Assembly: GCF_001636845.1 (NCBI RefSeq)
Contig: NZ_LITT01000014.1
Coordinates: forward strand, 1 to 57,058
Direction of reading: 5' to 3'
DNA: 57,058 nucleotides
DNA from: Clostridium ljungdahlii
Lineage (GTDB): Bacteria; Bacillota; Clostridia; Clostridiales; Clostridiaceae
This document shows, piece by piece, positions 19,150 through 43,995 of the stretch. How positions within the stretch are numbered: position 1 is the stretch's first letter; each line of letters begins with the position of its first letter. Below the pieces are notes generated by a model, which was given only the letters and a program-made list of their open reading frames with translations, was not told where the DNA came from and ran no database searches. Both the position numbers and the translations under genes were made by a program.

Positions 19150-19332
19150 TTATCCGATGACTATTTGCTCTAATACTCCCACTTCTTCAAGTAGGAGTAA
19201 AGAGCAATTACGTCCCTGGATAACGATTTTCCCTAAAGGATAACGCCTTCTAAGTGCTGAAGCACTAAGAAGCCTGTTAATAAGCATCAGGTGAAGTTAA
19301 AACTCAATCTGATGCCAAGAACTCTGTTTATT
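19150..19332 (-). repeat. Structured 3' repeat, copy A
   Basis: Read on the minus strand it starts AATAAACAGAGTTCTTGG, 67 bases after the response regulator stop. It has hairpins GCATCAG/CTGATGC, GGCTTCTTAGTGC/GCACTTAGAAGGC and TACTCC/GGAGTA inside GCTCT/AGAGC, and ends TAGTCATCGGATAAA. It is the longer form, with the second hairpin that copies C and D lack. It also forms the leader before the ABC operon. Confidence 0.75.
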
Positions 19333-19398
19333 GCATAAAAAATAGACTAAACCAGATTTTTGGCTTAGTCATATTTGCCCATAGAAATTTTAATAGTC

Positions 19399-20082
19399 TT
19401 ACTTTTCCCACTTATACCCTACTCCCCAGACAGTAGAAATATATTCTTCTTCAGGATCAAATTTTTGAATCTTATGTCTTATCTTTTTAACATGCTCTGC
19501 TACCGATGCTGAATCTCCTTCAGCATCATACCCCCATACTTTCTCGTATATCTGTTCCTTTGAAAAAACTTGTCCACAATTTACCGACAAAAATTCAATT
19601 ATATCAAATTCCTTCTTAGTTAAAATTACTAACTGGCCATTACAGTAAATTTCTCTATTTCTTAAGTTTATACTCACATTTTTAAAGTATAAATTGGCCT
19701 TTTCAGAATTATTTGTGTTTCTTTTTTCTCTTCTCAAATGAGCATGTATTCTCGCTTTTAATTGTCTTAAACTAAATGGCTTTTGAATATAATCATCTCC
19801 ACCAGAAGCAAGTCCCTTAACTATGTCTCTTTCTTCTCCTTTAGCAGTTAAAAAAATAATTGGACAACTTACTATATCTCTTATATCATTACATACCTCA
19901 TATCCATTTTTACCTGGCATCATAATATCAAGTAATATTAAATCTGGATAAAGCTTTATTTTTTCCATGGCTTCTTCACCACTAGAGGCAGTAAAAACTT
20001 CATAATCATCTTCCTCCAATGAATCTTTTAAAAAAGATATTATATCCTCTTCATCATCTACTACTAATATTTTTTCTCTCAA
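19399..20082 (-). CDS. OmpR/PhoB-family response regulator
   Basis: The 227-residue regulator has a receiver domain with the acidic pocket DDEED near residue 9, phosphoacceptor Asp in LILLDIMMPG near residue 52, and KPFS near 101, and a C-terminal winged helix (KEFDIIEFLSVNCGQVFSKE, VRHKIQKFD-like helix, GVGYKW end). It precedes the BcrA-type ABC operon, whose last gene is a kinase, so the two form a split two-component system that probably controls that operon. Confidence 0.92.
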   Translation of the reverse strand: MREKILVVDDEEDIISFLKDSLEEDDYEVFTASSGEEAMEKIKLYPDLILLDIMMPGKNGYEVCNDIRDIVSCPIIFLTAKGEERDIVKGLASGGDDYIQKPFSLRQLKARIHAHLRREKRNTNNSEKANLYFKNVSINLRNREIYCNGQLVILTKKEFDIIEFLSVNCGQVFSKEQIYEKVWGYDAEGDSASVAEHVKKIRHKIQKFDPEEEYISTVWGVGYKWEK

Positions 20083-20120
20083 TTTTTATCACTCCAATAA
20101 TAATTCTTATATCTGCTTTA

Positions 20121-20375
20121 TTTTGTCCGATCGCTACCATTGCTAACACCCCATCGCACACAGCGAAAGCGACTATCACCAAATCAAAGATTTGGGATAT
20201 CTGCTTTTCTATCAAAGTTGGGGATAAGCACTGCTACGCGCCTGGATAAGTTCTTCCCCTAAAGGATAACGTATTCTAAGTGCTAAAGACACTAAGAATA
20301 CTGTTAATAAGGTTCAGCTGGATGAAAGTCATCCTTATAAAGCAAACTCCATCTGAACCTAAGAATCACTTGATA
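20121..20375 (-). repeat. Structured 3' repeat, copy B (long form)
   Basis: On the minus strand it starts ATCAAGTGATTCTTAGG, where TGA is the stop codon of the preceding phosphatidyltransferase gene. Hairpins GGTTCAG/CTGAACC and GTATTCTTAGTG/CACTTAGAATAC match those of copy A with changed pairs, followed by a TCGC...GCGA hairpin, ending TAGCGATCGGACAAAA. It covers almost the whole gap before the response regulator gene, so it is also that gene's leader. Confidence 0.75.
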
Positions 20376-20902
20376 AATAAACTTTTTCTATTTATTTGTA
20401 ATTCACTTGAAAACAAATTAATCAATAATTCCTCAATAGCAGAAATGCTTGCAATAGTACAAACTATATACATAATCATATTTGATTGCACAAAGGCAAG
20501 TGATATTATAAATGCAAACAGTATAACTCCTGTAAATTTATTTCCATAAGTATGGAGCATCTCAAAAGTTTTATACTTTATAAATATTATTATCATTGAT
20601 ATTATTTTAATCATTGCTATAATGAAAACCCAGATGATAATTCTAATTGTCAGTTTAATAACTGGATACAGTACAATTATTAATACCAATATCATTATAA
20701 AATCCCCAATAGAATCAAGGTTATCGCCTAGTTTACTAACGGTATGCGTTTTTCTTGCTATATATCCATCAAGAACATCAGTAATTTGACAAGCAAGAAA
20801 AATTATAAAAAATGGTCCACTCAAAGGCTTTACAAATAACATCATAATTTCAAGAAATACTCTTAAAAGCGATATGCAATTTGCTACTGAATTAATTATC
20901 AT
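20366..20902 (-). CDS. CDP-alcohol phosphatidyltransferase family protein
   Basis: The 178-residue membrane protein carries the complete family motif DG..AR(8)G...D...D: DGYIARKTHTVSKLGDNLDS followed by IGD, near residues 44-66. Such enzymes move a phosphatidyl group from CDP-diacylglycerol to an alcohol such as glycerol phosphate or inositol. It has four or five further hydrophobic segments. The protein ends FIK inside the 5' edge of repeat copy B. It follows the small membrane protein gene by 41 bases on the same strand. Confidence 0.85.
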   Translation of the reverse strand: MIINSVANCISLLRVFLEIMMLFVKPLSGPFFIIFLACQITDVLDGYIARKTHTVSKLGDNLDSIGDFIMILVLIIVLYPVIKLTIRIIIWVFIIAMIKIISMIIIFIKYKTFEMLHTYGNKFTGVILFAFIISLAFVQSNMIMYIVCTIASISAIEELLINLFSSELQINRKSLFIK

Positions 20903-20942
20903 AAAATTATCCTTCCTCGTATAATCATATTTATCCTTACTT

Positions 20943-21341
20943 TTATGATGAACGAAATACTACTAAAAACCAAATAGCATTTACAATTAACGATGCAATA
21001 CAAATAACTCCTATTAGTGTATATAATGAATTTTTAGCAAATAAACTAGACATAAAGACGACTGTCATTAATGAAAAATCTGATAATACTCCAATGGCAA
21101 GAACAAATGCCATTACAAATCTCACTGCTCTTATTCCTAATATATAAATGATTAAAGGTAATATATACAATAATAAAACAATACCCACAGATAACCACAT
21201 ACCAAAAGAATTGAATTTATTAGCATGTGGCCCAGAATTAGCAAGCGGCGAAAGAGAACTTATAACTATTAGCGAGCAAAAAAGTACTGCAGAAACTAAT
21301 GTTATAAAAATAACCTTATACTTATTTTTTTGTTCTATCAT
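20943..21341 (-). CDS. Hypothetical membrane protein, four segments
   Basis: A 132-residue protein with four hydrophobic segments (about residues 10-28, 46-68, 72-95, 105-127) and a short polar loop ANSGPHANKFNSFG after the first. I do not recognise the family. It lies just upstream of the phosphatidyltransferase gene on the same strand and divergent from the Bce-type regulator gene. Confidence 0.6.
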   Translation of the reverse strand: MIEQKNKYKVIFITLVSAVLFCSLIVISSLSPLANSGPHANKFNSFGMWLSVGIVLLLYILPLIIYILGIRAVRFVMAFVLAIGVLSDFSLMTVVFMSSLFAKNSLYTLIGVICIASLIVNAIWFLVVFRSS

Positions 21342-21457
21342 TATTTAAGCATCCTTTCTTAATTCTTCTATTTTGTTTCAGTAAAAAATGAATTATTAAT
21401 TATATTATATTATGATAAAATGGAAATAAGCAACATTACTTTTAAGAGGTGTATTGA

Positions 21458-22147
21458 ATGTACAATATAATGTTAATTGAAGATGATAAAAAATTAAATA
21501 GTCTTATAAGAAATCATCTTAAAAAGTATGGATATCAAACTTGCTGTGTAAATGATTTTTGTGATATAAAAACTGAATTTATTAAAAATAACCCCCATCT
21601 TGTTCTCATGGACATTAACTTACCCTTATATGATGGCTTTTACTGGTGCAGAGATATAAGAACAATATCTAATGTTCCTATAATATTTCTTTCAGCTAGA
21701 AATTCTGATATGGATCAAGTTATGGCCATTGAAAATGGAGGAGATGATTATATAACCAAGCCTTTTTCCTATGATGTACTCATGGCAAAAATAAAGGGAG
21801 TTATAAGAAGAGTTTATGGAAGTTACTCAGAAAACAGCAGCAGTGAAGTATTTGAATCAAATGGACTTTTTTTGTATTTAAATCAAAACGTAGTAGAATA
21901 CCAAAGTAAAAAAATAGAACTTAGCAAAAAAGAATTTCAACTTTTATACTCTCTAATTAAAAATGCAAATAAAATTGTCTCAAGAGAAACATTACTGGAA
22001 GTTTTATGGAATGATATTGACTTTGTTGATGACAATACATTATCCGTTAATATGACCCGAGTGAGGAAAAGACTTGAAGAACTTGGAATTACTAAAGTTA
22101 TTGAAACCAAGCGTGGGCAAGGTTATAAAATAGTCCCTAATTGGTAA
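21458..22147 (+). CDS. Bce-type OmpR-family response regulator
   Basis: A 229-residue regulator: receiver domain with EDDKK near residue 8, phosphoacceptor Asp in LVLMDINLPLYDG near residue 51 and KPFSYD near residue 100; winged helix with SKKEFQLLYSLIKNANKIVS and RGQGYKIVP. It starts a plus-strand run with a short kinase, an ATPase and a FtsX-type permease, the standard layout of bacitracin/lantibiotic detoxification modules, in which the transporter itself senses the peptide. Confidence 0.92.
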   Translation: MYNIMLIEDDKKLNSLIRNHLKKYGYQTCCVNDFCDIKTEFIKNNPHLVLMDINLPLYDGFYWCRDIRTISNVPIIFLSARNSDMDQVMAIENGGDDYITKPFSYDVLMAKIKGVIRRVYGSYSENSSSEVFESNGLFLYLNQNVVEYQSKKIELSKKEFQLLYSLIKNANKIVSRETLLEVLWNDIDFVDDNTLSVNMTRVRKRLEELGITKVIETKRGQGYKIVPNW

Positions 22148-22166
22148 AACAAAGCAGGTGGAATAA

Positions 22167-23219
22167 ATGAATTTCAAAGACTTTCTTAAAGATAAGATAC
22201 CTTTTGCAGTAATTTATTTTTTAGCTACTGCTGCAGTTATACTTGTAATGTATCTTACTTTAATCATAAACAAAATTGAACTTATGAATAATAACATACT
22301 TTACGCCTGGTTAATTTCAATAATCTTTTTTATACTATTTTTAATATATGATTACTTAAAAAATAGACATTTTTATAATCAGCTAAATGTAATGTTAAAT
22401 GCAAAGGAAGATTTAGATAACATACTTAATATAGGTAATTGCAGCACTCATGAGCAGGAAATGTTTAAAAAGCTCCTGCTTAAAACTTATAAAATCTACA
22501 ATAACAAAACTATAAAATTTGAAGAAACACATAAAGAATACATAAATTTCATAAATAAGTGGGTACATCAAATGAAAACTCCTGTATCTGTTATGAATCT
22601 GATACTTCAAGATGAAATAAATGAAGAAAATAGAGCTGTATTTGACAGTATATTAGAAGAAAATGAAAAGTTATCTCATGGTCTTGATATGATCCTTTAC
22701 AATGCAAGACTCAATGAATTCAATTTCGATTTTAATGTTGAAAGTTTAAATATAGTATCTATTGTTAGAAAAGTTATTAATGACAATAAAAAGTCTCTCA
22801 TAAGAAATCACATATTTCCTAAGCTTACAGACAATACATCTATAACAGTAGAAACAGATAAAAAATGGATTTACTTTGTTATAAATCAAATAGCTGTAAA
22901 TGCTATAAAATATTCAAAGCTGAAAATTCAAGACAACAAGTACATTACCTTTAAAATGAAAGCTGAAAATTCAAAAATTATATTATCCATAAGTGATGAA
23001 GGAATAGGTATACCAAAAGAAGATCTAAGTAGAGTATTTAATGCTTTCTTTACAGGTAAAAATGGAAGAAAAAGTGATGAATCCACAGGTATGGGAATGT
23101 ACCTTGCAAAGAAAATATGTGATAAACTTGGTCATGAAATTCTTGTAGAATCAGAAGAAGGCAAAGGTTCCACCTTTTCTATTGTATTTTTCAAGGGTAA
23201 AAACTTGTTTAAATTTTAA
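22167..23219 (+). CDS. Bce-type intramembrane-sensing histidine kinase
   Basis: The 350-residue kinase has two close membrane segments (about 13-34 and 42-62) with almost no extracellular loop, then the phosphoacceptor box INKWVHQMKTPVSVMNLIL near residue 131 and an ATPase domain (NQIAVNAIKYSK, DEGIGIPKEDL, STGMGMYLAK). Kinases of this build do not bind the drug but take their signal from the partner ABC transporter encoded downstream. It follows the regulator gene by 19 bases. Confidence 0.92.
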   Translation: MNFKDFLKDKIPFAVIYFLATAAVILVMYLTLIINKIELMNNNILYAWLISIIFFILFLIYDYLKNRHFYNQLNVMLNAKEDLDNILNIGNCSTHEQEMFKKLLLKTYKIYNNKTIKFEETHKEYINFINKWVHQMKTPVSVMNLILQDEINEENRAVFDSILEENEKLSHGLDMILYNARLNEFNFDFNVESLNIVSIVRKVINDNKKSLIRNHIFPKLTDNTSITVETDKKWIYFVINQIAVNAIKYSKLKIQDNKYITFKMKAENSKIILSISDEGIGIPKEDLSRVFNAFFTGKNGRKSDESTGMGMYLAKKICDKLGHEILVESEEGKGSTFSIVFFKGKNLFKF

Positions 23220-23254
23220 TCTTTCAATATTGTAAGATTAAAATTGTATTTGAA

Positions 23255-23289
23255 AGAGAAATCGATACATTGATTTCTCTAATTTTTTT
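23255..23289 (+). terminator. Hairpin with T tract between kinase and transporter genes
   Basis: AGAGAAATC and GATTTCTCT (23255-23263, 23272-23280) pair perfectly and are followed by AATTTTTTT. It should limit read-through from the regulator/kinase pair, so the transporter pair probably has its own inducible promoter in the 75 bases after it. A weaker inverted repeat around TCTCAT/ATGAGA (23313-23342) there may be a regulator site. Confidence 0.75.
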
Positions 23290-23364
23290 ATAATATATAC
23301 ATAAAGTTCAAGATATTTCTCATCTAAAAGAATGAGAATATTATGAGATGAAAGGAATGATAAC

Positions 23365-24132
23365 ATGTCAGTATTAAAGGCTGAAAATATAAGTAAAATT
23401 TATAGTGATAAAAGAGGAAGCTTACAGGTAAAAGCCCTTGATAAATTTAATATTAGCATAGATGAAGGAGAATTTGTAGGTGTTATGGGTCCTTCTGGAA
23501 GTGGTAAGAGTACCCTTTTAAATATTCTTGCAACAATAGATACTCCAACTTCAGGAGAGCTTTTTATAAATGGAGTTAATCCAGAAAAACTTGACGAAAA
23601 GAAAGCTGCACTATTTAGAAGAAAGGAGCTTGGATTCATATTTCAAGATTTCAATTTACTAGATTCCTTATCAATAAAGGAAAATATAATACTTCCATTA
23701 GTACTCAATAAAACAAGTACTCATGAAATAGAAAAAAAAGTAGATGATATTGCTTCACTTTTAAATATAAAAAAGATTTTAGATAAAAGACCCTATGAAA
23801 CTTCAGGTGGTCAGCAGCAAAGAGCCGCTTGTGCTAGAGCACTAATTCACAATCCATCTATAATACTTGCAGATGAACCTACTGGAAATCTTGATTCTAA
23901 AGCTTCTCAAGACGTTATGGAATCTTTGACTAACTTAAACAATGAAAGAAAAGCAACTATAATGATGGTTACTCATGATCCTTTTGCAGCTAGCTTTTGT
24001 AAAAGAATAATAATGATTAAGGATGGAAGGTTCTTTTTAGAAATTGTAAAAGGAGGTAATCGTCAAGCTTTCTTCAAGGAAATCATGGATTCACTTACTT
24101 TAATAGGAGGTCATTACAATGACATTGCATAA
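23365..24132 (+). CDS. BceA-like ABC transporter ATPase
   Basis: A 255-residue ATPase with Walker A GPSGSGKST near residue 40, the Q-loop FQDFNLLD, signature TSGGQQQRAACARAL, Walker B IILADEPTGNLD and H-loop MMVTHDPFAASF. This is the MacB/LolD/BceA branch, which pairs with a FtsX-type permease. Its end overlaps the permease gene start by 14 bases, showing translational coupling. Confidence 0.92.
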   Translation: MSVLKAENISKIYSDKRGSLQVKALDKFNISIDEGEFVGVMGPSGSGKSTLLNILATIDTPTSGELFINGVNPEKLDEKKAALFRRKELGFIFQDFNLLDSLSIKENIILPLVLNKTSTHEIEKKVDDIASLLNIKKILDKRPYETSGGQQQRAACARALIHNPSIILADEPTGNLDSKASQDVMESLTNLNNERKATIMMVTHDPFAASFCKRIIMIKDGRFFLEIVKGGNRQAFFKEIMDSLTLIGGHYNDIA

Positions 24133-26080
24133 CATTGCTATTAAAAATATAAAAGGAAATTTAAATAAATTTATAATGTACTATTTAAGTAATACCTTTG
24201 TAGTAATGGTATTTTTCATATTTGCAAACTTTCTTTTAAGTCCTAAAGCTTCCAGTTTAAAAAACATGGGGCAAGCTGGATCAATTATGACAGAAACAGT
24301 TTATCTTTGTGAGTTTGTAATACTCATATTCACAGTTGTATTTACTAACTATTCCATATCAAGTTTTTTAAAATCAAGAGAAAAAGAATTTGGACTTTTA
24401 TCAATGTTTGGACTGACAAGAAGCCAGGTAAGAAATTATGTTATGTTTGAAAACATTATTGTTTCTTTATTTTCAATAACAACAGGAGTCGTCTTTGGTA
24501 TCCTTTTTTCTAAATTATTTTTTATGGCAATTTCAGCTATTTTGATTTTGAATGCTGAAATACCCTTTACTATATCAATTAAAGCTGTAGTATTAACCTC
24601 AATTTGCTTTTTAGCATTGTTTCAAATAACCTGTTTTAGATCAAGCTATAAGATAAAAAGCAACAATATAATAGAGCTTTTAAAAGGCTCACGGGTTGCA
24701 AAGCCAGTGCCTAAATTTTCTAGTAAAAAAGCAATTTTATCTATAATATTGATTGGCTTTGGATATATTTTAGCAGTTTTTTCAGGTCAGGCTATTGTAC
24801 TCACTATGTTTCCTATTTTAATTGTAGTAGTAACTGGTACCTATATGTTATACTCTCAATTCAGCATATATGTTACAAGTAAACTTAAAAATAATAATAA
24901 AATCTTTTATAAAGGCATCAACATGATAACACTGTCTCAAATAATATATAAACTTAGTGACAATACAAAAATACTATTTGCTGTTTCAATACTTTCAGCT
25001 GTAACTTTGACAGCTTCTGCAAGTGTATACTCATTTCAAAAAACTGTACAAAAACAAACTGTAATAGACTACCCACAAGACATAAGTTTTATTGAAAATG
25101 GATTAAATACACACAATGTAATATCACCTAAAGAAGTAGAAAAAGTTTTTAAATCCTATGGAAATGAAATAAAATATAAAAATAAAATTATCCTTATAAA
25201 AGCAACTAACAATGATTTATCTTCAAATAAGCACTCAAATTTTGAAGAACTCATCAATAAAAAAGATTTCTATATTATGTCCAATACTGATTATAACACT
25301 TTATCAAGTGAGCAAAAGAAACCACCTATTAAATTAAATAATAGTGAAGTAATTGTTCACTATCATAATGTAATTGCAACTAAGGATAAGGAATTATTTG
25401 CTGATAAAAATTATTTAAAATTAAATACCCAAAGCACTTCCATAAACTTAAAGCTTAAAAATGAAATAAATGGTGGAATAATTAATAAGGATAGCAAGAA
25501 CTCTAATACTGCAGTAGTAAGCGATGATGAGTTTAACAAACTTAAAGCTGATATTAAGGATGATAATCTTCAAGTTTATTATGGTTATACTATAAAAAAT
25601 GGATTTAGAGCAGTAAACTCAGTATCAAAGATAAAAAGCGAAGTTCCAAAAGAAATGAAAATCAGTCTTTCTGAAAGAGTATTAAGCTTTTCTAATATGA
25701 TGGAAGTTATGTCCACATTTTTCTTCATAGGAACCTTTATTTCAGTATTGTTCTTTATAGCAACCTGCAGCATAATATATTTTAAGCTATTTAATGAAAT
25801 TCAAAATGATAAGCATGAATTTACAGCTCTTAAAAAAATGGGAATGTCTCTAGATGAAATAAAAAAAATAGTAAGTACACAATGCTTTATAATGTTCTTT
25901 CTCCCTTTTGCAGTATCCTTTATTCATACTAGTTTTGCAATAAATGCCTTAAGCAACATATTACAAACAAGCCTTAGCCTTTATTTAATGATTATAGTAG
26001 GAATTTATTTTCTACTTCAGACAATTTACTTTTGCTTTTCAAGATCAATGTATATAAAGCAAATAAATAGCTGGCGATAG
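24119..26080 (+). CDS. BceB-like FtsX-domain permease
   Basis: A 653-residue permease with about ten membrane segments, a FtsX domain in the N-terminal half, and a large extracellular domain of roughly 200 residues between segments seven and eight (about residues 310-520), the hallmark of BceB-type peptide-antibiotic transporters that recognise drug-bound lipid cycle intermediates. The particular antibiotic cannot be read from sequence. A terminator follows. Confidence 0.9.
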   Translation: MTLHNIAIKNIKGNLNKFIMYYLSNTFVVMVFFIFANFLLSPKASSLKNMGQAGSIMTETVYLCEFVILIFTVVFTNYSISSFLKSREKEFGLLSMFGLTRSQVRNYVMFENIIVSLFSITTGVVFGILFSKLFFMAISAILILNAEIPFTISIKAVVLTSICFLALFQITCFRSSYKIKSNNIIELLKGSRVAKPVPKFSSKKAILSIILIGFGYILAVFSGQAIVLTMFPILIVVVTGTYMLYSQFSIYVTSKLKNNNKIFYKGINMITLSQIIYKLSDNTKILFAVSILSAVTLTASASVYSFQKTVQKQTVIDYPQDISFIENGLNTHNVISPKEVEKVFKSYGNEIKYKNKIILIKATNNDLSSNKHSNFEELINKKDFYIMSNTDYNTLSSEQKKPPIKLNNSEVIVHYHNVIATKDKELFADKNYLKLNTQSTSINLKLKNEINGGIINKDSKNSNTAVVSDDEFNKLKADIKDDNLQVYYGYTIKNGFRAVNSVSKIKSEVPKEMKISLSERVLSFSNMMEVMSTFFFIGTFISVLFFIATCSIIYFKLFNEIQNDKHEFTALKKMGMSLDEIKKIVSTQCFIMFFLPFAVSFIHTSFAINALSNILQTSLSLYLMIIVGIYFLLQTIYFCFSRSMYIKQINSWR

Positions 26081-26132
26081 TTAAATTACTACGTTTAAAA
26101 AGTAAGAAAATACGATCACTTTCTTAAAGAAT

Positions 26133-26173
26133 TTAGAGGCAGTACTTTCTCAATGTGCCTCTAATTTTCTTTT
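26133..26173 (+). terminator. Terminator of the Bce-type module
   Basis: TTAGAGGCA (26133-26141) and TGCCTCTAA (26156-26164) pair perfectly around 14 bases and are followed by TTTTCTTTT. Confidence 0.88.
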
Positions 26174-26240
26174 AAATGCATATCAGCTCTACGTGATACT
26201 TTATATTTAACTGCTATTTTTAAACTCATAGTGTGGAGAT

Positions 26241-27191: not shown

Positions 27192-27341
27192 ATATTTCAC
27201 CTGCTTAATATAACTTTTAATAGCCTTGTGTATAATTCACATGTCCTTATTTTGATGAGCCTATAGAGCATGTTCTTACAGCCTTTATACATTGTTCTGT
27301 ATCTGCAGAAACATCATTATATCTCTTTATTTTAATGTATA

Positions 27342-28715: not shown

Positions 28716-28883
28716 TTTGAAAATCTCTCCTTTTTTTATAGAACTTTAGGCTTGATCATAACTGCTGCCCTTTTTATTTTAGTTTCTGGCATAGCTCAAA
28801 ATCATTTTATATACCTTTATTAACTGTAGCTGCAAATGCATACCCATGTTCTATTGAAATACTTTTCTTCACATATTTCTGTA

Positions 28884-30087: not shown

Positions 30088-30105
30088 CGCTTCATATATT
30101 GTTTC

Positions 30106-31086: not shown

Positions 31087-31089
31087 AAT

Positions 31090-33034: not shown

Positions 33035-33053
33035 AAATTAACGCCTCCTTATT

Positions 33054-33839: not shown

Positions 33840-33857
33840 AATAACGCCTTCCTATAT

Positions 33858-35309: not shown

Positions 35310-35412
35310 TATTTGATCAACTCCTTTTCAAATTTATACTTGTATTATCAGATTAAACAATATAAAAGCAGATATACAGCATAGCTTACAAGTTTTAAAA
35401 CTCCTTAATAAT

Positions 35413-35427
35413 AGTAAACGATTGCAA
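35413..35427 (-). promoter_or_regulatory. cre site for CcpA, perfect consensus match
   Basis: Read on the minus strand, TTGCAATCGTTTACT fits WTGNAANCGNWNNCW at every position. It sits in the 420-base divergent region, upstream of the symporter gene. This predicts catabolite repression by CcpA of the sugar cluster. Confidence 0.65.
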
Positions 35428-35547
35428 AATGTACCTCCCAAATAAAATGGCATATTTCAAAAACTTAACTCCTCCTTTTTATTTTATTCACCACTTCTTA
35501 GTTATTAATTTTATATTATTTAGTCTTAACTTAAGTGTGTTTTTTTT

Positions 35548-35562
35548 ATGAAAACGTGTACT
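35548..35562 (+). promoter_or_regulatory. Second cre-like site, one mismatch
   Basis: ATGAAAACGTGTACT fits the same consensus except for one W position. It lies nearer the AraC-type gene. The rest of the 35310-35730 region is AT-rich with no gene. Confidence 0.4.
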
Positions 35563-35730
35563 TTTCTATATTAATGTCATTATCCGTTATTTTTAAATAT
35601 ATTTTTTTAACATATAACTTTTTATATATTTTGGAAATAATATTTACAAATTGCTAATATATATATACAATAAAATCATAGTTTAAAATTTATATACGAG
35701 TAATTGGGGTATCTTGGAGGTACTATGTAA

Positions 35731-37326
35731 ATGTTTTCTAAAATTGTCTTATATGCAGAAGATAAAATTTCTAATATGATATATAACTTCTACAGGACAA
35801 CTAAAAGTGATTTTTCTATTTCTTATATTGCTAATTCTTATAAAAACAGTATTGAAAAAGCAATAGAACTTAATGCTCAAGTTATAATTCTTCAACTTAA
35901 ACATCCTGTATATAAAATTCATAATTTTTTCTACGATTTAGCAATGTCAAATATATATCCAATGATCCTAATTTTTAATGTCATTTCAGAAAATCAAATT
36001 ATATACTCTATTACAAGTCACAAAGACATTACTTATATTAATAAAATAAAATCCTTTTTTACTCAGTCTTTAAGTGAAAAATATACTTGTCATTTTAACT
36101 ATATTGGTGAAGAAAAAAATTCAAACTTGGTAATGGACTTCAGAATCAGTCAACTAGAAAAAACAGAATATCTAAAAGATATTCTACGCGGAGTAATTAA
36201 AAGTGAATTTTTATATTATAAAAAAAAAGTACATTTAAATCTAAATAATTACGGTTACTACGTATATATTTGTAACCTTATGGAAATTGAATATTCAGAC
36301 CACTACTTAAATAAAAACATTTACTACTTAACTGGAGAAGAATTTATTAAAGAATGTCAAACCGTTCTTGACGAGTACAGTGGAGGTGAGGTCTTTTATA
36401 TTAATCCCGATATTTTGTGCATAATTATCAATGATTTTAATTGTACAAGTATTGCTAGCAAACAGAATAAACTTTTTGAAATTACTAGCAAATTGAATAG
36501 CGTAACAAACTCTAAAACAGCATTCAGATATATGAGCAGCTATATCAAAGACATTGAAAATATGAGAGATGCTTATGAATCTTTCCATTGTTTAAAAGAA
36601 TATAACTTTTTCTGTTCTGATGCTAAATTACTCACTCAAGAATATATCAATTCAATAAAAAAAGAAATAGATTACACTTTGATAGATGACACTCTAAAAC
36701 AAATAAAAGAGCTTATAAATTATGATATTTTTAATTTAAAATTGAATGAATTAATATATAAACTATTTTTAGATATTGTAAAACCAAGTCTTGACTACAA
36801 TCTTTATTATTATTGCCATACTTCATTATCATCGGCCTTGGTTGACAGGTATAGCAATCTATATAAAAAAATATTACCGGAAAGCTTACCATACAAAAAA
36901 GTATTCTTTACCTCTATAGAGGATAAATGCAGTGAGTTTATAGATTCTGTAAATCAGCTCAAGTCTGAGCTTTCCAACAAATATATGATAAAGAATTCTA
37001 TAGTTATTCAAGTATTAAACTTTATTCATATTCACTATATGGAGGATATCACTGTAAACCTTATTGCATCCAGCTTAAATATTAGCAACTCATATTTAAG
37101 TCAGATATTTAAAAAGGAGATTGGTACAAGCATTATAAAATATATTATTAACTACAGAGTAGAAAAAGCCAAAGAACTTTTTTCTTCAAGTGACGAACTA
37201 ATTTACAATATTGCTGAAAAAGTGGGCTTTTCTGATGAAAAACACTTTTCAAAAACATTCAAAAAAATTACTGGTCTAACTCCTATGCAGTATAAAAAGC
37301 AAAATGGGAAGGCCAAATATATCTAA
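35731..37326 (+). CDS. AraC-family transcriptional regulator
   Basis: A 531-residue protein with the AraC DNA-binding domain at the C-terminus: first helix-turn-helix VNLIASSLNISNSYLSQIFK near residue 445, second IAEKVGFSDEKHFSKTFKKI near residue 493 and the closing TGLTPMQYKK. The 430-residue N-terminal part is not a recognisable receiver (no conserved aspartate pocket) or cupin and may sense the substrate. Divergent from the sugar operon, it is very probably its activator. GGAGG lies 11 bases before ATG. Confidence 0.88.
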   Translation: MFSKIVLYAEDKISNMIYNFYRTTKSDFSISYIANSYKNSIEKAIELNAQVIILQLKHPVYKIHNFFYDLAMSNIYPMILIFNVISENQIIYSITSHKDITYINKIKSFFTQSLSEKYTCHFNYIGEEKNSNLVMDFRISQLEKTEYLKDILRGVIKSEFLYYKKKVHLNLNNYGYYVYICNLMEIEYSDHYLNKNIYYLTGEEFIKECQTVLDEYSGGEVFYINPDILCIIINDFNCTSIASKQNKLFEITSKLNSVTNSKTAFRYMSSYIKDIENMRDAYESFHCLKEYNFFCSDAKLLTQEYINSIKKEIDYTLIDDTLKQIKELINYDIFNLKLNELIYKLFLDIVKPSLDYNLYYYCHTSLSSALVDRYSNLYKKILPESLPYKKVFFTSIEDKCSEFIDSVNQLKSELSNKYMIKNSIVIQVLNFIHIHYMEDITVNLIASSLNISNSYLSQIFKKEIGTSIIKYIINYRVEKAKELFSSSDELIYNIAEKVGFSDEKHFSKTFKKITGLTPMQYKKQNGKAKYI

Positions 37327-37385
37327 AAGCCAAAGATTAATTATTCATCTAGCGCCTTTTAAGTTAAATATACGTAAGACAAATA

Positions 37386-37422
37386 ACATACATGGCAGTA
37401 ATTAAATTACTACCATGTATGT
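37386..37422. terminator. Long hairpin between the AraC gene and repeat C
   Basis: ACATACATGG.AGTAAT pairs with ATTACT.CCATGTATGT over 17 bases with one mismatch. It lies 60 bases after the AraC gene and just after the 3' edge of repeat copy C, so it can end transcripts from both convergent sides, though neither side shows a strong T tract. Confidence 0.55.
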
Positions 37423-37555
37423 TTATCCGATGACTACCTGCCCTAATACTCCCACTTCTCCAAGTTGGAGTAAAGATCAGCTACGTCCCTGGATAACGAT
37501 TTCTAAGCATCAGGTGGAGTTAAAACTCCATCTGATGCCAAGAACTCTGTTTATC
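37421..37555 (-). repeat. Structured 3' repeat, copy C (short form)
   Basis: On the minus strand it begins with ATCGGATAAACAGAG, where TAA is the stop codon of the ABC permease gene. Hairpins GCATCAG/CTGATGC with an inner TGGAGT/ACTCCA, then CGTTATCCAGGGACGTAGCTG, then TACTCC/GGAGTA, and the end TAGTCATCGGATAAAC. It is terminal in its transcription unit, because the next gene is convergent, which argues against a leader-only role. Confidence 0.78.
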
Positions 37556-38408
37556 CGATATCCTTTTTAGCAAATCCTTTAATACTCATAAATATGAAAA
37601 ATACTAAATATACACATACATAGACCATCATCCATGCACTTGGTGTAGTAGACTTCCCTGATATACCAAAACCAAAACCTGACATAGGATTAAATGTCCC
37701 TAAAGAAGTAAAAATAGTAGAAATCATTTTTCTATAAATTACTTCAAAAGGGGAAATTAAACTTGAAATTATTCCAATTGTAGAAAGGGAATCATTTTTA
37801 ATATATGCTCCTGCTTGTTCCATCACTCCACCAATTAATCCAAGTACATATAAAGCCACTACTACTATCCCATTATTTAAGGTTTTAAATTTAGTACTTC
37901 CATAAAGAGATATTGATAATATAGTCAACGGCTGCAAAATAAAAAACAAAAATCCCTTAGCAAGTGCTGCTATCCCAAAGGTTTCTATAATAGATATTTT
38001 ACTTACAGTGGAAATAATAATTACTGCTATATAAAGAAAAGTACTATATAAAATAATAAGAACAGCTGTACCCAGATATTTTCCAAGTATATATTCTTCC
38101 CTCTTAATTGGCTTTGTTAAAATGGTTAAAATAGTTCCATTTTCTATTTCAGAAGAAACCATACCTATAGACAACATTATAGTCAAAAATGCTACAAGCA
38201 TGCTGGAAAAATAAAACCCTATTATAGAAACAGTTGAAGAAAGATTAACAATCATGTCTATCATTCCATTATTACCAGTTGTATTATTACTTATAAATTT
38301 AAAAATAATAGTTAAAAGGATAAGATATATTATGGTCAATATACCTATAAAATGAAAGATTTTCTTTCTATAAATTTCCTTAAAAGTAGAAAGTGCTATG
38401 ATAAACAT
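37551..38408 (-). CDS. ABC-2 type permease
   Basis: A 285-residue membrane protein with six segments (first at 14-38), with the polar start MFIIALSTFKEIYRKKIFHF typical of ABC-2 permeases. It ends in KKDIG with its stop codon inside the 5' edge of repeat copy C. It overlaps the ATPase gene by one base (ATGA-type join) and is the last gene of the sigma/anti-sigma/ABC operon. Confidence 0.85.
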   Translation of the reverse strand: MFIIALSTFKEIYRKKIFHFIGILTIIYLILLTIIFKFISNNTTGNNGMIDMIVNLSSTVSIIGFYFSSMLVAFLTIMLSIGMVSSEIENGTILTILTKPIKREEYILGKYLGTAVLIILYSTFLYIAVIIISTVSKISIIETFGIAALAKGFLFFILQPLTILSISLYGSTKFKTLNNGIVVVALYVLGLIGGVMEQAGAYIKNDSLSTIGIISSLISPFEVIYRKMISTIFTSLGTFNPMSGFGFGISGKSTTPSAWMMVYVCVYLVFFIFMSIKGFAKKDIG

Positions 38409-39322
38409 TATTCTTCACCTCTTTCAATAAGTTTTATAAATATGTCCTCCAAACTATTTCTGTGCGGAGTAAGCCCATACAACTTTCCTCCTCCTGATAT
38501 AATTAACGAAGCAACTTCGTGTATTTCATAGTTTTCCTTAACATGCATTTTAATGTTTTTCCCATCAAAAGTCATATCTTCATCAATTTTTTCAAGCTTA
38601 TTTAAAATTTCATTACTTATATTTTCTACATGAATATCCAAAACAGTGTTTCCTTCTAAAAGATCATTGATTTTTCCTTGTTTTACAATACTTCCTTTAC
38701 TTATAATAGCTGCACTGTCGCAAATCATTTCTACTTCACTTAAAAGGTGACTATTTAAAAATACAGTTTTGCCCATACCTTTTAGCTTCAACATAATATC
38801 TCTAACTTCTTTTCTACCTATAGGATCTAAGGCAGAAGTAGGCTCATCCAAAAAAAGAAGCTCAGGATCACAAAGAAGAGCACTGGCAATTCCTATTCTC
38901 TGCTGCATGCCTTTACTATAAGTACCTATTTTGCTTTCTTCAGCACCTTTTAGATTGACAATTTCAAGGACTTCTTCTATTTTTATAGAAGAAGTCTTCT
39001 TGTCAAGTTTATATAATGAAGAATGGAAGGACAGGAGGTCTAATCCTGTCATCCATTCTTGATATTTAAAAAGTTCAGGCAAATATCCTATCTTTTTTCT
39101 CGATTCTAAATCACCAATAGACTTACCTAGTATACGTGCATTTCCTGAAGTTGGAAATAGAAGCCCAACAAGGGTTTTTATAAATGTGCTTTTTCCTGCA
39201 CCATTAGGACCTAAAAATCCGTAAATTTCACCTTTGGATACAGATATATTAATGTTTTTGCATCCTTTATTATTTTCATATATTTTGGAAAGATTTTCTG
39301 TTTCAATTACCAAATTTATCAC
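38408..39322 (-). CDS. ABC transporter ATPase
   Basis: The 304-residue ATPase carries Walker A GPNGAGKST near residue 39, signature YSKGMQQRIGIASALL near residue 134, Walker B LLFLDEPTSALDP and H-loop LNSHLLSEVEMI, and an 80-residue C-terminal extension seen in NatA/CcmA-type subunits. The frame opens with GTG at 39322 overlapping the anti-sigma stop; TTG at 39313, six bases after GAGGTG, is the other candidate start. Confidence 0.9.
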   Translation of the reverse strand: MINLVIETENLSKIYENNKGCKNINISVSKGEIYGFLGPNGAGKSTFIKTLVGLLFPTSGNARILGKSIGDLESRKKIGYLPELFKYQEWMTGLDLLSFHSSLYKLDKKTSSIKIEEVLEIVNLKGAEESKIGTYSKGMQQRIGIASALLCDPELLFLDEPTSALDPIGRKEVRDIMLKLKGMGKTVFLNSHLLSEVEMICDSAAIISKGSIVKQGKINDLLEGNTVLDIHVENISNEILNKLEKIDEDMTFDGKNIKMHVKENYEIHEVASLIISGGGKLYGLTPHRNSLEDIFIKLIERGEE

Positions 39323-40425
39323 CTCATAGACTTTGCTGTTTCCAGTAATTTATTTTTATCTACATTACCATCAATACTAATTAAAACATTGTCTTTAAGA
39401 ATTAAAATGGAAGAATGTTTCTTTCCCTTGTCATTTTGGTTGGTATCAAAGCATCCAATGGCTTTCATGCCATTTATATTCATTTCTTCAGCTTTACCTC
39501 CTACATTAGGAATATACAAAGTACTTTTCCAATCCTTTATGGATTTCAACTGCTGCTGCATATCATATGGTAGTATAGAAAGATCTGATAGAGCATTGAA
39601 TATTTCATCTACATCTACATCATTAGGTGCTGTAATTTCTGGCATTTTGGTTTCTGACACAGCTATACGCTCACCATTTGTTGAATCTTCATACATAATG
39701 CTTAACGCTCCAGTCATGTTTAAAGAAAAAGTTTTTCCATCTAAGTCTTTAGGAAATAGCTTTTTTCCTCCTAAAGATTTAAGAAGTTCATTTATATTTT
39801 CTACATTTAAAGTAAAATCCATTTTTGAAGGCTTATCTATTGAAATATTCTTTACTTCCTTCGATTGTATATTTTGAGGTATAGATATTGTAAATGGCAG
39901 TGTTTTTTTTGCTTCATCTATAGTAACATTTTTTTGTTCACCACCCTGGTATTTAACTTTACCTATTTTATCAATGTTAATATCTGACTTACGATCTTGG
40001 AGCTCAGTTTTGAGCTTTTTAATATCATCCAATGGAATATTTACACTTTTAATATCCTTTGCTCTAAAAATTGAAACTGCACTCATAACTGATGCTCTTA
40101 TAGGCCCTACAGAAACACAAGTAGTTATGACAAGTGCTGCACAAGCAGCCGCTGCTATTTTTTTATACTTTTTCATATTTTTAAACTCTCCTTTTTTATT
40201 TTTTGCTTGAATATCCCTATTTTCTATTTCTACATGATTTATATTAAATTCTTTCTCATAATCCTGAAGCTTTTCCACAGCAAAACTATTCATAGACTTC
40301 AATTCTTTATAAACTTCTTTGCATTTTTCACATTGAAAAAGGTGCATTTCTACTTCTTTTATTTCAGTATTACTAAGTTCTCCATCAATATATGCTTGAA
40401 TGCTTCCTTCACTTAGACACTTCAC
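39319..40425 (-). CDS. Membrane anti-sigma factor with zinc-finger domain
   Basis: A 368-residue protein. The N-terminus has the ZAS motif HLFQCEKCKEV (H-x3-C-x2-C) that grips the sigma factor. A membrane segment lies near residues 88-108, and 260 extracellular residues follow. The C-terminal GMKAIGCFDTNQNDKGKKHS and NKLLETAKSM resemble the DUF4367-type domain of such proteins. It starts four bases after the sigma gene, so the pair is cotranscribed; release of sigma probably follows an envelope signal. Confidence 0.85.
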   Translation of the reverse strand: MKCLSEGSIQAYIDGELSNTEIKEVEMHLFQCEKCKEVYKELKSMNSFAVEKLQDYEKEFNINHVEIENRDIQAKNKKGEFKNMKKYKKIAAAACAALVITTCVSVGPIRASVMSAVSIFRAKDIKSVNIPLDDIKKLKTELQDRKSDINIDKIGKVKYQGGEQKNVTIDEAKKTLPFTISIPQNIQSKEVKNISIDKPSKMDFTLNVENINELLKSLGGKKLFPKDLDGKTFSLNMTGALSIMYEDSTNGERIAVSETKMPEITAPNDVDVDEIFNALSDLSILPYDMQQQLKSIKDWKSTLYIPNVGGKAEEMNINGMKAIGCFDTNQNDKGKKHSSILILKDNVLISIDGNVDKNKLLETAKSMR

Positions 40426-40428
40426 TTT

Positions 40429-40959
40429 TTATTCACCTCTCTCTTCTAAATTTAAGTAGTTCTCCTTAAATTTTCTTTGTGCTCTCGATATAAGTGTGCC
40501 TACAGAATTTTTATCTACTCCAATTATTTCTGCAATTTCACTATATTTGTATCCTGAAAACTTAAGAATCAGACACATACGATCTCTAGGTGGAAGTGTA
40601 TTTAGTACTTTTTTAGTTAAATCTACTTCACAATTATTAATTGCAACCTCTTCAATTGAAATAACGTTATCTGTTTCTTTTTTGTAAATCATCTCATTTT
40701 TTCCTTCATGAATTTTCTTATTTCTTATATAATTGTAGGAAGTATTGGTAGAAACCTTATTTAACCATGCAGCAATGTTATTGTGGTCAGGTGGTGAATT
40801 ATATAACTTCATAAATACTTCCTGTGCCAAATCTTCAGCTGCATGCATGTCCCCAGTAAGGTAGGAAATTCTTCTGAAGATGGTGTCATAATATTTCTCA
40901 TATACAGCTTTAAAATTTTGCTCATATTTCTTCTTCTTAAAATAACTGATAACACCCAT
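40429..40959 (-). CDS. ECF-type RNA polymerase sigma factor
   Basis: The 176-residue protein has sigma region 2 (AVYEKYYDTIFRRISYLTGD, AAEDLAQEVFMKLY) and region 4 (LPPRDRMCLILKFSGYKYSE, IAEIIGVDKNSVGTLISRAQ). It heads the operon sigma - anti-sigma - ATPase - permease, so it most likely drives its own promoter and the exporter genes. The 187-base region to the divergent DUF2164 gene should hold that promoter; I could not assign the hexamers with confidence. Confidence 0.92.
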   Translation of the reverse strand: MGVISYFKKKKYEQNFKAVYEKYYDTIFRRISYLTGDMHAAEDLAQEVFMKLYNSPPDHNNIAAWLNKVSTNTSYNYIRNKKIHEGKNEMIYKKETDNVISIEEVAINNCEVDLTKKVLNTLPPRDRMCLILKFSGYKYSEIAEIIGVDKNSVGTLISRAQRKFKENYLNLEERGE

Positions 40960-41182
40960 ATTTTTGACTTTATTCCTCCTTCTAGGTACTCTTGTTCAAA
41001 AGCTTCTGATTAATATATTCTAGAATATACCTGATACCTTTTTTGTTAAATTTGGTATCTATAATATTAACACATAAGTATTAAAAATTATGACAAGAAT
41101 TATGATATAATTAATAAACTGTTTTAGTCTATACTGTTATAGAATTATGAAAAATAATAATTTTAAATGGAGGTATGCTATA

Positions 41183-41410
41183 ATGAACAAAATTAAATTA
41201 AGCAAAGAAAAAAAGCAGGAAATGATTTCTACAATAAAGAACTATTTTCTAAACGAAAGAGATGAAGAATTAGGTGACTTAGCCTCAGGCTTGATACTAG
41301 ATTTTATAGTAGAAGAATTAGCTCCAGAATTTTATAATCAGGGAGTTTATGATTGTTATAAATATATTACTGATAGAAATGAAGATTTATTATCCCTTCA
41401 AATATATTAA
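41183..41410 (+). CDS. DUF2164 family protein
   Basis: A 75-residue protein: MNKIKLSKEKKQEMISTIKN, then FLNERDEELGDLASGLILDF and NQGVYDCYKYI. The pattern LG.L.....LDF......YN.GV.D fits DUF2164, a small cytosolic family without a known role. I use the ATG at 41183, nine bases after GGAGG; the frame upstream to 41147 has no ribosome site. Confidence 0.75.
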   Translation: MNKIKLSKEKKQEMISTIKNYFLNERDEELGDLASGLILDFIVEELAPEFYNQGVYDCYKYITDRNEDLLSLQIY

Positions 41411-41441
41411 CTTATATGCAAATTAGGAGAATGTTAAAAAT

Positions 41442-42272
41442 ATGATATATACACATGAAGATAAACGTAATAAAGAATTGAGAGCTGACTGTAAAAAATG
41501 TTTTGGATTATGCTGCATTGCATTATACTTCTCAGCGTCCGAAGGTTTTCCAACTAACAAAGACGCAGGTAAAGCCTGTATAAATTTGCAATCAGACTTC
41601 ACCTGCTCTGTTCACAAAAATCTTAGGAACAAAGGTCTTAAAGGTTGTACTGCATATGATTGTTTTGGTGCTGGTCAAAAATTAGCTCAGATTACCTGCA
41701 GTGGGCATGATTGGCATCAAAGCTCTGAATATGCTAAGAAAATGTTTGATGCCTTCTTAACTATGAGACAGCTTCACGAAATACTATGGTATCTTTCTGA
41801 AGCATATACCCTGCAAACAGATAACAGTATCAAAAAAAATATAAACTCCTTAATTGAAAATACTGAAGGCCTTACTCTTCTTGACGTTGATTCTCTATTA
41901 TCACTAGATGTAGAAGCTCATAGAAACAAGGTTAATGTAGTACTTAGAAATACAAGCGAGCTTATGCGTTCCAAAGCTCATAGTGGAAAGAACCCTTTAT
42001 CTCACAGATTAGACTATTTTGGTGCAGACCTGAGAAAAACTAATCTTAGAGGTGCAGACTTAAGGGGAACGTGCCTTATTGCTGCAAATCTTAGAGGAGT
42101 TGATTTAAGTTATGCTGATCTCATTGGAGCTGATTTGCGAGATGCTGATCTCAGCGGAGCCAATCTCTCAAAAATCATCTTTCTTACTCAGTCCCAAATC
42201 AATACAGCTAAGGGTAATTCCCATACAAAACTACCTATGGTGATAATTCGCCCAAGCTATTGGTCAAAATAA
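41442..42272 (+). CDS. Cysteine-rich plus pentapeptide-repeat protein
   Basis: The 276-residue protein combines two parts. The N-terminal 90 residues hold eight or more cysteines (CKKCFGLCC, GKACINL, FTCSVH, GCTAYDCFGAG, ITCSGHDW), resembling a YkgJ-type metal-binding cluster. After a helical middle, residues 200-250 form a pentapeptide repeat run (ADLRKTNLRGADLRGTCLIA and on through ADLIGADLRDADLSGANLS). Pentapeptide coils can mimic DNA, as in Qnr. It follows DUF2164 by 31 bases. Confidence 0.8.
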   Translation: MIYTHEDKRNKELRADCKKCFGLCCIALYFSASEGFPTNKDAGKACINLQSDFTCSVHKNLRNKGLKGCTAYDCFGAGQKLAQITCSGHDWHQSSEYAKKMFDAFLTMRQLHEILWYLSEAYTLQTDNSIKKNINSLIENTEGLTLLDVDSLLSLDVEAHRNKVNVVLRNTSELMRSKAHSGKNPLSHRLDYFGADLRKTNLRGADLRGTCLIAANLRGVDLSYADLIGADLRDADLSGANLSKIIFLTQSQINTAKGNSHTKLPMVIIRPSYWSK

Positions 42273-42290
42273 TTATAGCTAATATTATTA

Positions 42291-42422
42291 AATAAACAGA
42301 GTTCTTGGCATCAGATGGAGTTTTAACTCCACCTGATACTTAGAAATCGTTATCTAGGGACGTAGCTGCTCGCAACGTACACTTGGAGAAGGGAGTATTA
42401 GAGCAGGTAGTCATCGGATAAA
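42291..42422 (+). repeat. Structured 3' repeat, copy D (short form)
   Basis: It starts AATAAACAGAGTTCTTGG, 18 bases after the pentapeptide gene stop, on that gene's strand. Hairpin GCATCAG.../CTGATAC, then GTTATCTAGGGACGTAGCTG and GCTC...GAGC enclosing GGAGAAGGGAGTATTA, and the end TAGTCATCGGATAAAC. The inner GCTC loop differs from copies A and C. Confidence 0.78.
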
Positions 42423-42540
42423 CATCCTAGGAAAGCCATTTTTGACTTCCCTTAAAAAATGTTATAATTAGGATATAATTAAATTATAATATAGTACCCA
42501 TTTGTAAAATAGTGTACTTAAAGGAATGAGGGGTTAGTTT

Positions 42541-43203
42541 ATGTTTCATGTAGTTGATTTTCAAAAATGGGAAAGGCGTGAACACTTTAAATATTATACT
42601 GAACAGCTTAAATGTGCCTATAGTATTACCGCAAATCTTGATGTTACTTTATTTAAGGAATCATTAAAAAAGAATAATTTAAAATTTTATCCTTCATTTA
42701 TATATTGTGTTAGTTATAACATAAATTCTATGCCGGAATTTCGTATGCGTCTTGGGGAAAACAGCCAATTAATTGTATATGATATTGTCCATCCTAACTA
42801 TACAATTTTTCATAAAGATGATCATACATTTTCAGACATTTGGTCAGAATATACAGATGACTTTTATAAATTTTATGATAATTATAAATGTGATATGGAA
42901 AAATACTCACATATTAAAGGTGTAAAAATTAAGGCAAACCAGCCTAAAAATTTCTACTGCATATCTTGTGTCCCATGGCTCACATTTACAGGATATTCAA
43001 CATACAGCAGCGAATCCAGTCCATCTTTGATGCCAATTATAACCTATGGAAAATATCATGAAGAAAACGGAAAATGGTTAATGCCATTTACTGTAACGAT
43101 ATCACACGCAGTGGCTGATGGATATCATGTAAGCAAATTAATTAACAGCATACAAGAAACAATAGATAAATTTAATATTGAAAAAAATAAAGCAGTTTTA
43201 TGA
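42541..43203 (+). CDS. Chloramphenicol-acetyltransferase-like protein
   Basis: The 220-residue protein has the full CAT fold markers: WERREHFKYYT at the start, PSFIYCVSYNINSMPEFRMR, FYCISCVPWLTFTGY, and the catalytic histidine in ISHAVADGYHVSKL near residue 189. CAT moves acetyl from acetyl-CoA to chloramphenicol; several clostridial members confer resistance, others are untested. A possible promoter (TTGACT, TATAAT) lies about 65-90 bases upstream, with a 15-base spacer. Confidence 0.85.
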   Translation: MFHVVDFQKWERREHFKYYTEQLKCAYSITANLDVTLFKESLKKNNLKFYPSFIYCVSYNINSMPEFRMRLGENSQLIVYDIVHPNYTIFHKDDHTFSDIWSEYTDDFYKFYDNYKCDMEKYSHIKGVKIKANQPKNFYCISCVPWLTFTGYSTYSSESSPSLMPIITYGKYHEENGKWLMPFTVTISHAVADGYHVSKLINSIQETIDKFNIEKNKAVL

Positions 43204-43315
43204 GTAATATGCTATCGTAAGTTATGTAGTCAATTTAATTTACCATATGAATATGAATATTAATATGTATTATAGATAATAATACATATTACAGATATGA
43301 AAGGATGTGTATAAA

Positions 43316-43870
43316 ATGGCATTAAATAATGCAATGACCGCTGATTTTTTAAGATCTGCATATGGTGGAGAAAGTATGGCTCATATGAGATATCTTATTT
43401 GGGGAGATCATGCTGAGAAAGCTGGATATTCTAACATTGCTAGACTTTTTAGAGGCATAGCCTATGCAGAATGGGCACATGCTAAAAATCATTTCAATGT
43501 ACTTAAAAATCAAGTTGGTGACAATACAGTTGCAGCTGGTGCTGTATTTGGAAATACCGATATTGTAGAAAACCTTCAGGGAGCAATAAATGGAGAACTT
43601 CATGAAGTAGATCAAATGTATCCTGTATATCTTGAAACTGCAAGATTTCAAAATGAAAAAGATGCTGAAAGGTCATTTCATTATGCACTAGAAGCTGAAA
43701 AACTACATGCAAATATGTTTAAAGGTGCACAGGAATCAGCTAAATCAGGAAAAGATATTCCAAATCAAAAGATATATGTTTGTCCAATTTGTGGATACAC
43801 ATACATGGGCGATAATGTAGGTGACTGTCCAGTTTGTGGTGCAAAGAAAGAAATCTTCAAAGAATTTTAA
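43316..43870 (+). CDS. rbr: Rubrerythrin
   Basis: The 184-residue protein has the N-terminal four-helix diiron domain with the ligand motifs E..H (GGESMAHMRY, AYAEWAHAKNH, GELHEVDQMY, ALEAEKLHANMF), and a C-terminal rubredoxin domain with the iron-binding pairs CPICGY and CPVCGAKK. It reduces hydrogen peroxide with electrons from NADH via rubredoxin reductases. The ATG at 43316 has AAGGATG upstream. The protein is complete. Confidence 0.92.
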   Translation: MALNNAMTADFLRSAYGGESMAHMRYLIWGDHAEKAGYSNIARLFRGIAYAEWAHAKNHFNVLKNQVGDNTVAAGAVFGNTDIVENLQGAINGELHEVDQMYPVYLETARFQNEKDAERSFHYALEAEKLHANMFKGAQESAKSGKDIPNQKIYVCPICGYTYMGDNVGDCPVCGAKKEIFKEF

Positions 43871-43897
43871 TATCAACACTATTTTTAACGTTTTCCC

Positions 43898-43995
43898 ATC
43901 AAGTGATCCTTAGACTCAGGTGAAACTTGCTTATGTGTGAGTCGCTTTCACTGTGTGTGATGGAAGGGTTACGGATGGTAGCCATCGGACAAAAT
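43898..43995 (+). repeat. Structured 3' repeat, copy E (B-type, short)
   Basis: It starts ATCAAGTGATCCTTAG, 28 bases after the rubrerythrin stop, on that gene's strand. GACTCA pairs with TGAGTC, then TCGCTTTCACTGTGTGTGA matches copy B with the TCGC/GCGA stem changed to TCAC/GTGA. It ends TAGCCATCGGACAAAA. An ATTGAG/CTCAAT hairpin (43997-44036) follows, probably a terminator. Confidence 0.75.

Follow-up and report, generated by a model that had tools for sequence, protein, structure and literature searches.

A stretch of 57,058 nucleotides from Clostridium ljungdahlii (NCBI RefSeq assembly GCF_001636845.1, contig NZ_LITT01000014.1, positions 1 to 57,058 of the forward strand; here called the window) contains five copies, c1 to c5, of a structured repeat, and each of the five lies 3' of a gene on the same strand, with c2 and c3 overlapping the last bases of that gene. 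Do these repeats act as RNA at the ends of messages, as an earlier reading made without database searches (the sequence-only reading) had proposed, or did they arrive there as DNA? We find that the repeat is a widespread, structured, non-autonomous mobile element and not a 3'-end RNA. That the copies are mobile DNA we regard as close to certain, and the best explanation as a whole, a non-autonomous mobile element with an IS200/IS605-like mechanism, is in our judgement reasonably probable.

All five copies are confirmed in the window with slightly corrected limits (Table 1; both ends are counted as part of the copy), as are the paired stem changes that the sequence-only reading had named and its two versions of the 5' block, which starts with ATAAACAGAG in c1, c3, and c4 (type I) and with ATCAAGTGAT in c2 and c5 (type II). 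Every copy closes in ATCGGAYAAA, the GGACAAA version being present in c2 and c5. A covariance scan of the entire window with filters off recovers c1 to c4 with E values from 2e-28 to 1.5e-5, and the remaining matches either overlap these copies or have E values of 0.12 or worse; the scan misses c5, which is known by its ends. Of the three copies folded singly, c3 and c4 form folds far more stable than those of shuffles (z of -5.9 and -4.8), and c5 does not (z of -1.4). An Rfam scan of the window gave nothing above the gathering score, the only match overlapping the copies being YenS (E of 4.8, 19.6 bits against a gathering score of 80).

Insight into the history of the copies comes from orthologous sites in two relatives, the complete genome G003 and a second genome, G005, in matched segments that are mostly 93-96% identical. 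Seven empty alleles at five sites retain an exact ATAAA. The c1 site is filled in G003 and empty in G005, where one ATAAA is left; the c3 site is empty in G005 with an exact ATAAA and is empty in G003 also; the c4 site is filled in G003 and empty in G005; and at host locus L154 the sites of an ATCAAG-type and an ATAAAC-type copy are both empty in both relatives. In the other direction, a copy private to G003 is missing from the window at 43160-43180. Some alleles count against so simple a history: G005 differs near c1 by about 20 more bases, the pentamer of the empty c3 site in G003 is changed, the empty c4 site of G005 reads ACAAA, and the c2 site, filled in G003, shows in G005 either an imprecise loss or a wider difference and is uninformative. 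At the c5 site both relatives are filled, with a type I 5' half, and copies thus seem to exchange halves. Only eight sites are common to the 43 distinct copies recognised in host stretches (the window's five and 38 more) and the 57 recognised in G003; both sets are incomplete, copies being counted by exact end patterns in fetched stretches, which excludes diverged or truncated copies and unfetched stretches.

By sequence, these comparisons show gene-less repeats that are scattered, are fixed at their ends, and occupy largely different sites in sister species, and they show entry into one resident ATAAA at AT^AAA, with no duplication beyond what both ends share. The terminal inverted repeats and duplicated target of miniature inverted-repeat transposable elements (MITEs) were not seen when the ends were compared by eye and the empty sites were read.

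The L154 copy of the ATCAAG type gives the position of the cut. Its empty allele is CTCTATAAAGGAATC, and the filled allele runs from CTCTAT through the element, CAAGTG...CGGAT, to AAAGGAATC; because the empty site is ATAAA, the cut must fall at AT^AAA, and ATCAA, a candidate target for this type, is ruled out. At a type I junction such as that of c3, the AAA may be the 5' end of the element or the target, the two being indistinguishable. AT stands before 83 of 83 type I (ATAAAC) copies from several species, AT itself having been outside the search pattern, and head-to-tail copies share ATAAA (L124, L138, L055, L074, L042, and L239). The 45 distinct right ends in the host comprise 39 with GGATAAA and 6 with GGACAAA. 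The latter, found at L004, L014, L143, and L150 and in the window at 20122-20125 and 43990-43993, keep AT at the 5' end, suggesting that GGAT is part of the element; they are perhaps a sub-lineage. With a cut at AT^AAA there would be either no duplication or a duplication of AT alone.

Alternatively, the same mobile element could be moved by an enzyme (serine, IS607-like, or IS110-like) that recombines both DNA strands at specific sites across a 2-bp AT core, a route already suggested for the repeat bcr1 with its TTTAT motif. AT at both junctions fits such a core equally well, and IS110 genes are present in seven of the 14 carriers tested, G003 among them. They are not universal, however, as G005 and six other carriers have no IS110 match, although serine recombinases were not searched for. 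Moreover, AT is self-complementary and would not fix the orientation of insertion, the GGACAAA ends with their 5' AT kept do not fit a duplicated AT unless it has mutated, and the conserved hairpins and linker pairing described below suggest a single-strand substrate. We consider recombination over an AT core possible but on balance unlikely.

The family extends well beyond the window and far exceeds chance, with dozens of copies at AT-rich places in the host chromosome and further ones in many related bacteria. In the 4.36 Mb host genome (G000) a blast search with c3 returns 67 matching pieces. A 15-base scan lists at least 111 loci, many of which are chance matches. The sequence-only reading had suggested that a covariance model be searched in clostridial genomes, and a model (R1) built from 41 sequences of several genera matches 27 of the 293 genomes sampled from the host's class, the host included, and 44 of 200 genomes of a second class, that of G023 (Sporomusa malonica, loci L059 and L091). 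Strong matches among the named loci lie in Clostridium, Haloimpatiens, Desulfosporosinus, Sporomusa, Petroclostridium, and Syntrophomonas records, and acetogen relatives and other Bacillota commonly carry the family. Plasmids (three queries) and phages (one query) gave no matches, two exact-pattern scans of viral contigs gave nothing, and no paper on this repeat family appeared among the titles listed in searches of an open-access library. No pair of copies is 98% or more identical, the best being 97.8% in the host and 97.0% in G003 (the comparison being made within structural classes of four or more members, which hold 34 of 43 host copies and 49 of 57 G003 copies), which indicates that recent activity is low. 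Internal deletion derivatives consisting of the element's two ends only are present at L060 (5994-6029), L110 (6496-6536), and L147 (around 7339), and two host copies, L011 and L028, apparently lie at matching positions in a sequence that has been duplicated, L028 without its 5' half.

The sequence-only reading had taken the paired stem changes to mean a conserved RNA fold. The fold itself is strengthened with more copies: a 46-pair structure on 41 sequences (A3) has 89.7% of its cells paired, with double changes in 27 of the 46 pairs and a covariation score reached by none of 500 shuffles, and covariation that might have been lost when more copies were aligned is thus kept. The double changes fall in 12 of the 19 pairs of helix 1 (hairpin 1) and in 15 of the 21 pairs of helices 3-5 (hairpin 2); helix 2, which joins the linker to the 3' end, barely varies and proves nothing, its ATCC-GGAT pairing being nearly invariant.

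A function as RNA fares less well, on account of the empty sites and of the mismatches in the stems. A fold under selection as RNA should favour G-U pairs, and paired changes could also arise when one arm of a palindrome is repaired from the other. In the stems G-T mismatches number 67 and A-C mismatches 57 (47 and 56 without one column pair), a near parity that gives no hint of selection at the RNA level and suggests that the covariation reveals a folded nucleic acid and not necessarily RNA. G-T makes up 4% of the standard pairs in element stems and 11% in 21 tRNA predictions, a comparison that is blind to A-C as the program brackets standard pairs only.

The linker between the hairpins is tied to the 5' end of the element. 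The base after AT.AA (X) and the base before the linker ATCC (Y) form a Watson-Crick pair in 36 of the 39 readable rows of A3 (two of its 41 rows are unreadable), as C-G in 26, G-C in 9, and T-A in 1. In a larger set, noisily anchored in that some starts lie in flanking DNA, 108 of 148 rows pair where 66.5 are expected, a count reached in none of 10000 shuffles. The covariation of X and Y fits a linker that would serve as the guide of the right end. The aligned copies show two hairpin domains maintained by paired changes, and one linker base that co-varies with the base next to the 5' end.

The position next to genes, which the sequence-only reading had taken as the common feature, holds for all five copies in the window and fails as a rule for the family. 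In the host a same-strand gene lies upstream of 24 of 43 copies (p = 0.54); 16 copies are sense and 14 antisense between co-directional genes, 8 are convergent, and 5 are divergent, so that copies do occur in either orientation, one of the two outcomes that the sequence-only reading had said would refute it, and a fixed 3'-position rule is refuted. In G003, for the 55 of 57 copies with both flanking open reading frames (called by length only in both genomes), there is a weak bias, with a same-strand upstream gene for 36 (p = 0.03) and 27 copies sense, 11 antisense, 9 convergent, and 8 divergent. Pooled over both genomes, co-directional gaps contain 43 sense and 25 antisense copies (p = 0.04), a weak bias that would be expected if harmful insertions are removed. 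A terminator scan, too crude to decide whether sense copies are transcribed, found candidates in 6 of 24 host gaps and 4 of 36 G003 gaps.

The placement of all five window copies and these weak biases, together with the strong fold and its double changes, speak for a structured RNA that sits in 3' untranslated regions to protect or end mRNAs and whose spread is a by-product, and among bcr repeats of all families 84 of 165 and 62 of 155 copies were found in transcripts of two B. cereus strains, according to one report (PMC3446304). The host placements, the antisense and divergent copies, the parity of G-T with A-C, and the low share of G-T in the stems argue otherwise. So do two genes that have taken in copies, a CAT-family gene of G003, close to its end, and a Mg-chelatase (ComM-like) gene of genome G248. 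We therefore find an RNA element of this kind improbable. In the CAT-family gene the private G003 copy sits close to the 3' end, at L182 around 8449-8582, and the host orthologue of that gene is at 42541-43203 in the window.

How, then, would the mobile element move? We favour, by slightly better than even chances, a single-strand mechanism in which a Y1 (HUH-type) transposase supplied in trans would excise and paste a structured, non-autonomous DNA element. On the opposite strand the order is TTTAT, CCGATGAC-hairpin 2, the linker GGATAAC, hairpin 1, and an end in TTTAT, TTGAT, or TTCAT; read in this way, the element would enter 3' of TTTAT, carry a hairpin near each end, and close in a T-rich pentanucleotide. 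One source names the T-rich pentanucleotides TTGAT, ATTAT, and TTTAT as those at which IStrons of the IS200/IS605 type insert, without duplication and lacking terminal repeats (PMC4227781), and another places IS200/IS605 guides 5' of each palindrome (PMC8266576). The repeats agree with such elements in keeping TTTAT once and ending in TTTAT or TTGAT (a 2-bp duplication of AT being also possible), and in having subterminal hairpins at both ends and no terminal inverted repeat. The central linker, whose ATCC is complementary in c3 to the GGAT of the 3' terminus, may act as a guide for the cleavage sites, and effects on neighbouring genes would be by-products of position.

The search for a helper covered three Y1 and two TnpB loci in the host; in other carriers 30 of 70 Y1 matches, then 30 of 111 Y1 matches with 14 IS110 and one IS91-like; and finally 16 stretches including seven new Y1 places. 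A Y1 match is present in the host, in 13 of 16 carriers (12 above the cut-off), and in 21 of 22 carriers of another set; an IS91-type Y2 is present in one of 14 carriers, and 0 of 14 control genomes matched. Several findings weigh against the Y1 mechanism. No transposase gene or autonomous element was found between these ends at about 70 of the 184 listed Y1 matches; G003 has no PF01797 match despite its complete genome and 57 recognised copies; and no Y1 match was found in three of 16 other carriers, all of them metagenome assemblies. Replication-strand bias is not strong: in G003 the strand used here as sense is co-directional with the fork in 37 of 57 copies, which leaves just 20 of 57 in which the lagging-strand template would carry the putative active strand of an IS605 reading (assuming an origin near base 1). 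The left end is invariant, and a guide there stays putative. G003 may have lost a helper that G000 and G005 keep, which the lack of very young copies allows.

Among the loci examined, copies lie near Y1 genes only in G006, G248, and G084. In the first two they are directly 3' of short Y1 genes (195 and 232 aa) and look like insertions, and in G084 a partial copy is near another Y1 gene; the adjacency in G006 and G248 is a weak lead for Y1. With the high copy number and the hairpins, it also brings to mind repetitive extragenic palindromic (REP) sequences moved by a linked TnpA-REP gene, or RAYT (REP-associated tyrosine transposase). However, three of about 70 Y1 loci compares with one in a rough chance estimate, the G006 copy overlaps the end of the Y1 gene, the two G248 copies are insertion-like in a broken Mg-chelatase gene, the Y1 loci of the host and G006 carry other repeats, and G003 has no Y1 match. 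Moreover, in the two loci read, repeats stand on one side only of the Y1 gene and do not flank it. A REP/RAYT system thus seems very improbable. The G248 locus (L348, 3799-5163) is a Mg-chelatase (ComM-like) gene broken by a fused Y1 gene and two repeat copies. A different REP-like family is present in the host at L158 (region G000:C12:310451-310780), where a RAYT-like Y1 gene of 182 aa has its own GGTGCCTGTCACC repeats.

Table 1. Repeat copies in the window and parts of copy c3.
Feature	Position	Strand	Description
c1	19149..19331	-	type I ends and one extra hairpin module, 183 bp
c2	20122..20374	-	type II 5' end (ATCAAG), two extra hairpin modules, 253 bp
c3	37422..37554	-	type I, basic form, 133 bp; E 2e-28
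c4	42292..42422	+	type I, basic form, 131 bp; E 2e-24
c5	43898..43993	+	short derivative, type II 5' end, 96 bp
c3 hairpin 1	37498..37547	-	5' hairpin in the sense used here; right-end hairpin if read as IS605
c3 linker GTTATCC	37491..37497	-	putative guide; its first base is the partner of X at the 5' end
c3 hairpin 2 (GAC..GTC)	37432..37487	-	helices 3-5 of A3
c3 5' junction ATAAA	37550..37554	-	AT read as target, from empty sites
c3 3' terminus ATCGGATAAA	37422..37431	-	element read as closing in GGAT, AAA as target

Elsewhere the window contains an IS110-family transposase gene (PF01548, PF02371) at 6947-8227 and, at 56145-57022, a reverse transcriptase with a group II maturase domain heading toward the window end, with a group II intron match below threshold at 56145-56219.

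Covarying stems make it easy to mistake repeats of this kind for regulatory RNAs; in this family DNA mobility is the most likely source of the covariation. Near genes, the copies bring in strong hairpins and stop codons by the dozen. We know of no helper for the mobility of bcr1, and the mobilising enzyme of the present family, once found, would bear on bcr1 too. A bolder proposal, which we hold to be quite doubtful, is that these are structured elements of several Bacillota classes, moved by an enzyme other than a recognised Y1, with the single linker as a shared guide that would pair with both ends and align them for excision and for entry at AT^AAA; on this view bcr1 would be a single branch of a far larger class with a never-identified helper.

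Compared by description and not by sequence, bcr1 is the closest known element, and reportedly (Okstad 2004) it has TTTAT at each end. Both are interspersed, gene-less, structured, and of similar size, and share TTTAT, the reverse complement of ATAAA, which stands at both ends in type I copies only, type II having TTGAT on one side. In the bcr literature bcr1 is described as confined to the B. cereus group, with a TTTAT motif and as many as 130 copies in a genome, plasmids carrying some of the copies (PMC6542083), and with a size of 147 or 167 bp (PMC2267715); bcr repeats are described as similar to MITEs, with mRNA decay correlated with bcr3 alone among the bcr families (PMC3446304). The present family differs in occurring in Clostridia and other Bacillota, and in the three plasmid queries it was on none.

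With IS200/IS605 and its non-autonomous, PATE-like derivatives the family shares entry 3' of a T-rich pentanucleotide without duplication, the lack of terminal inverted repeats, subterminal hairpins, a right end of TTTAT, TTGAT, or TTCAT, and a guide-like linker; it differs in that no TnpA or TnpB was found between its ends, in the lack of a Y1 match in G003 and of a lagging-strand bias, and in that one linker seems to serve both ends. EFAR of Enterococcus faecalis resembles the family in being modular, palindromic, and non-autonomous with two stem-loop domains, and differs in entering stem-loop targets where the present family targets ATAAA. The names EFAR and Efa-1, with a length of 163 bp, also appear in the literature. 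REP and REPIN elements with RAYTs are likewise high-copy chromosomal hairpin repeats, whereas the present family has two different hairpin domains and no consistently linked RAYT, and G003 lacks a Y1 match. Although it is a proven member of neither group, by analogy the family appears to work like bcr1 and like the miniature elements of IS200/IS605.

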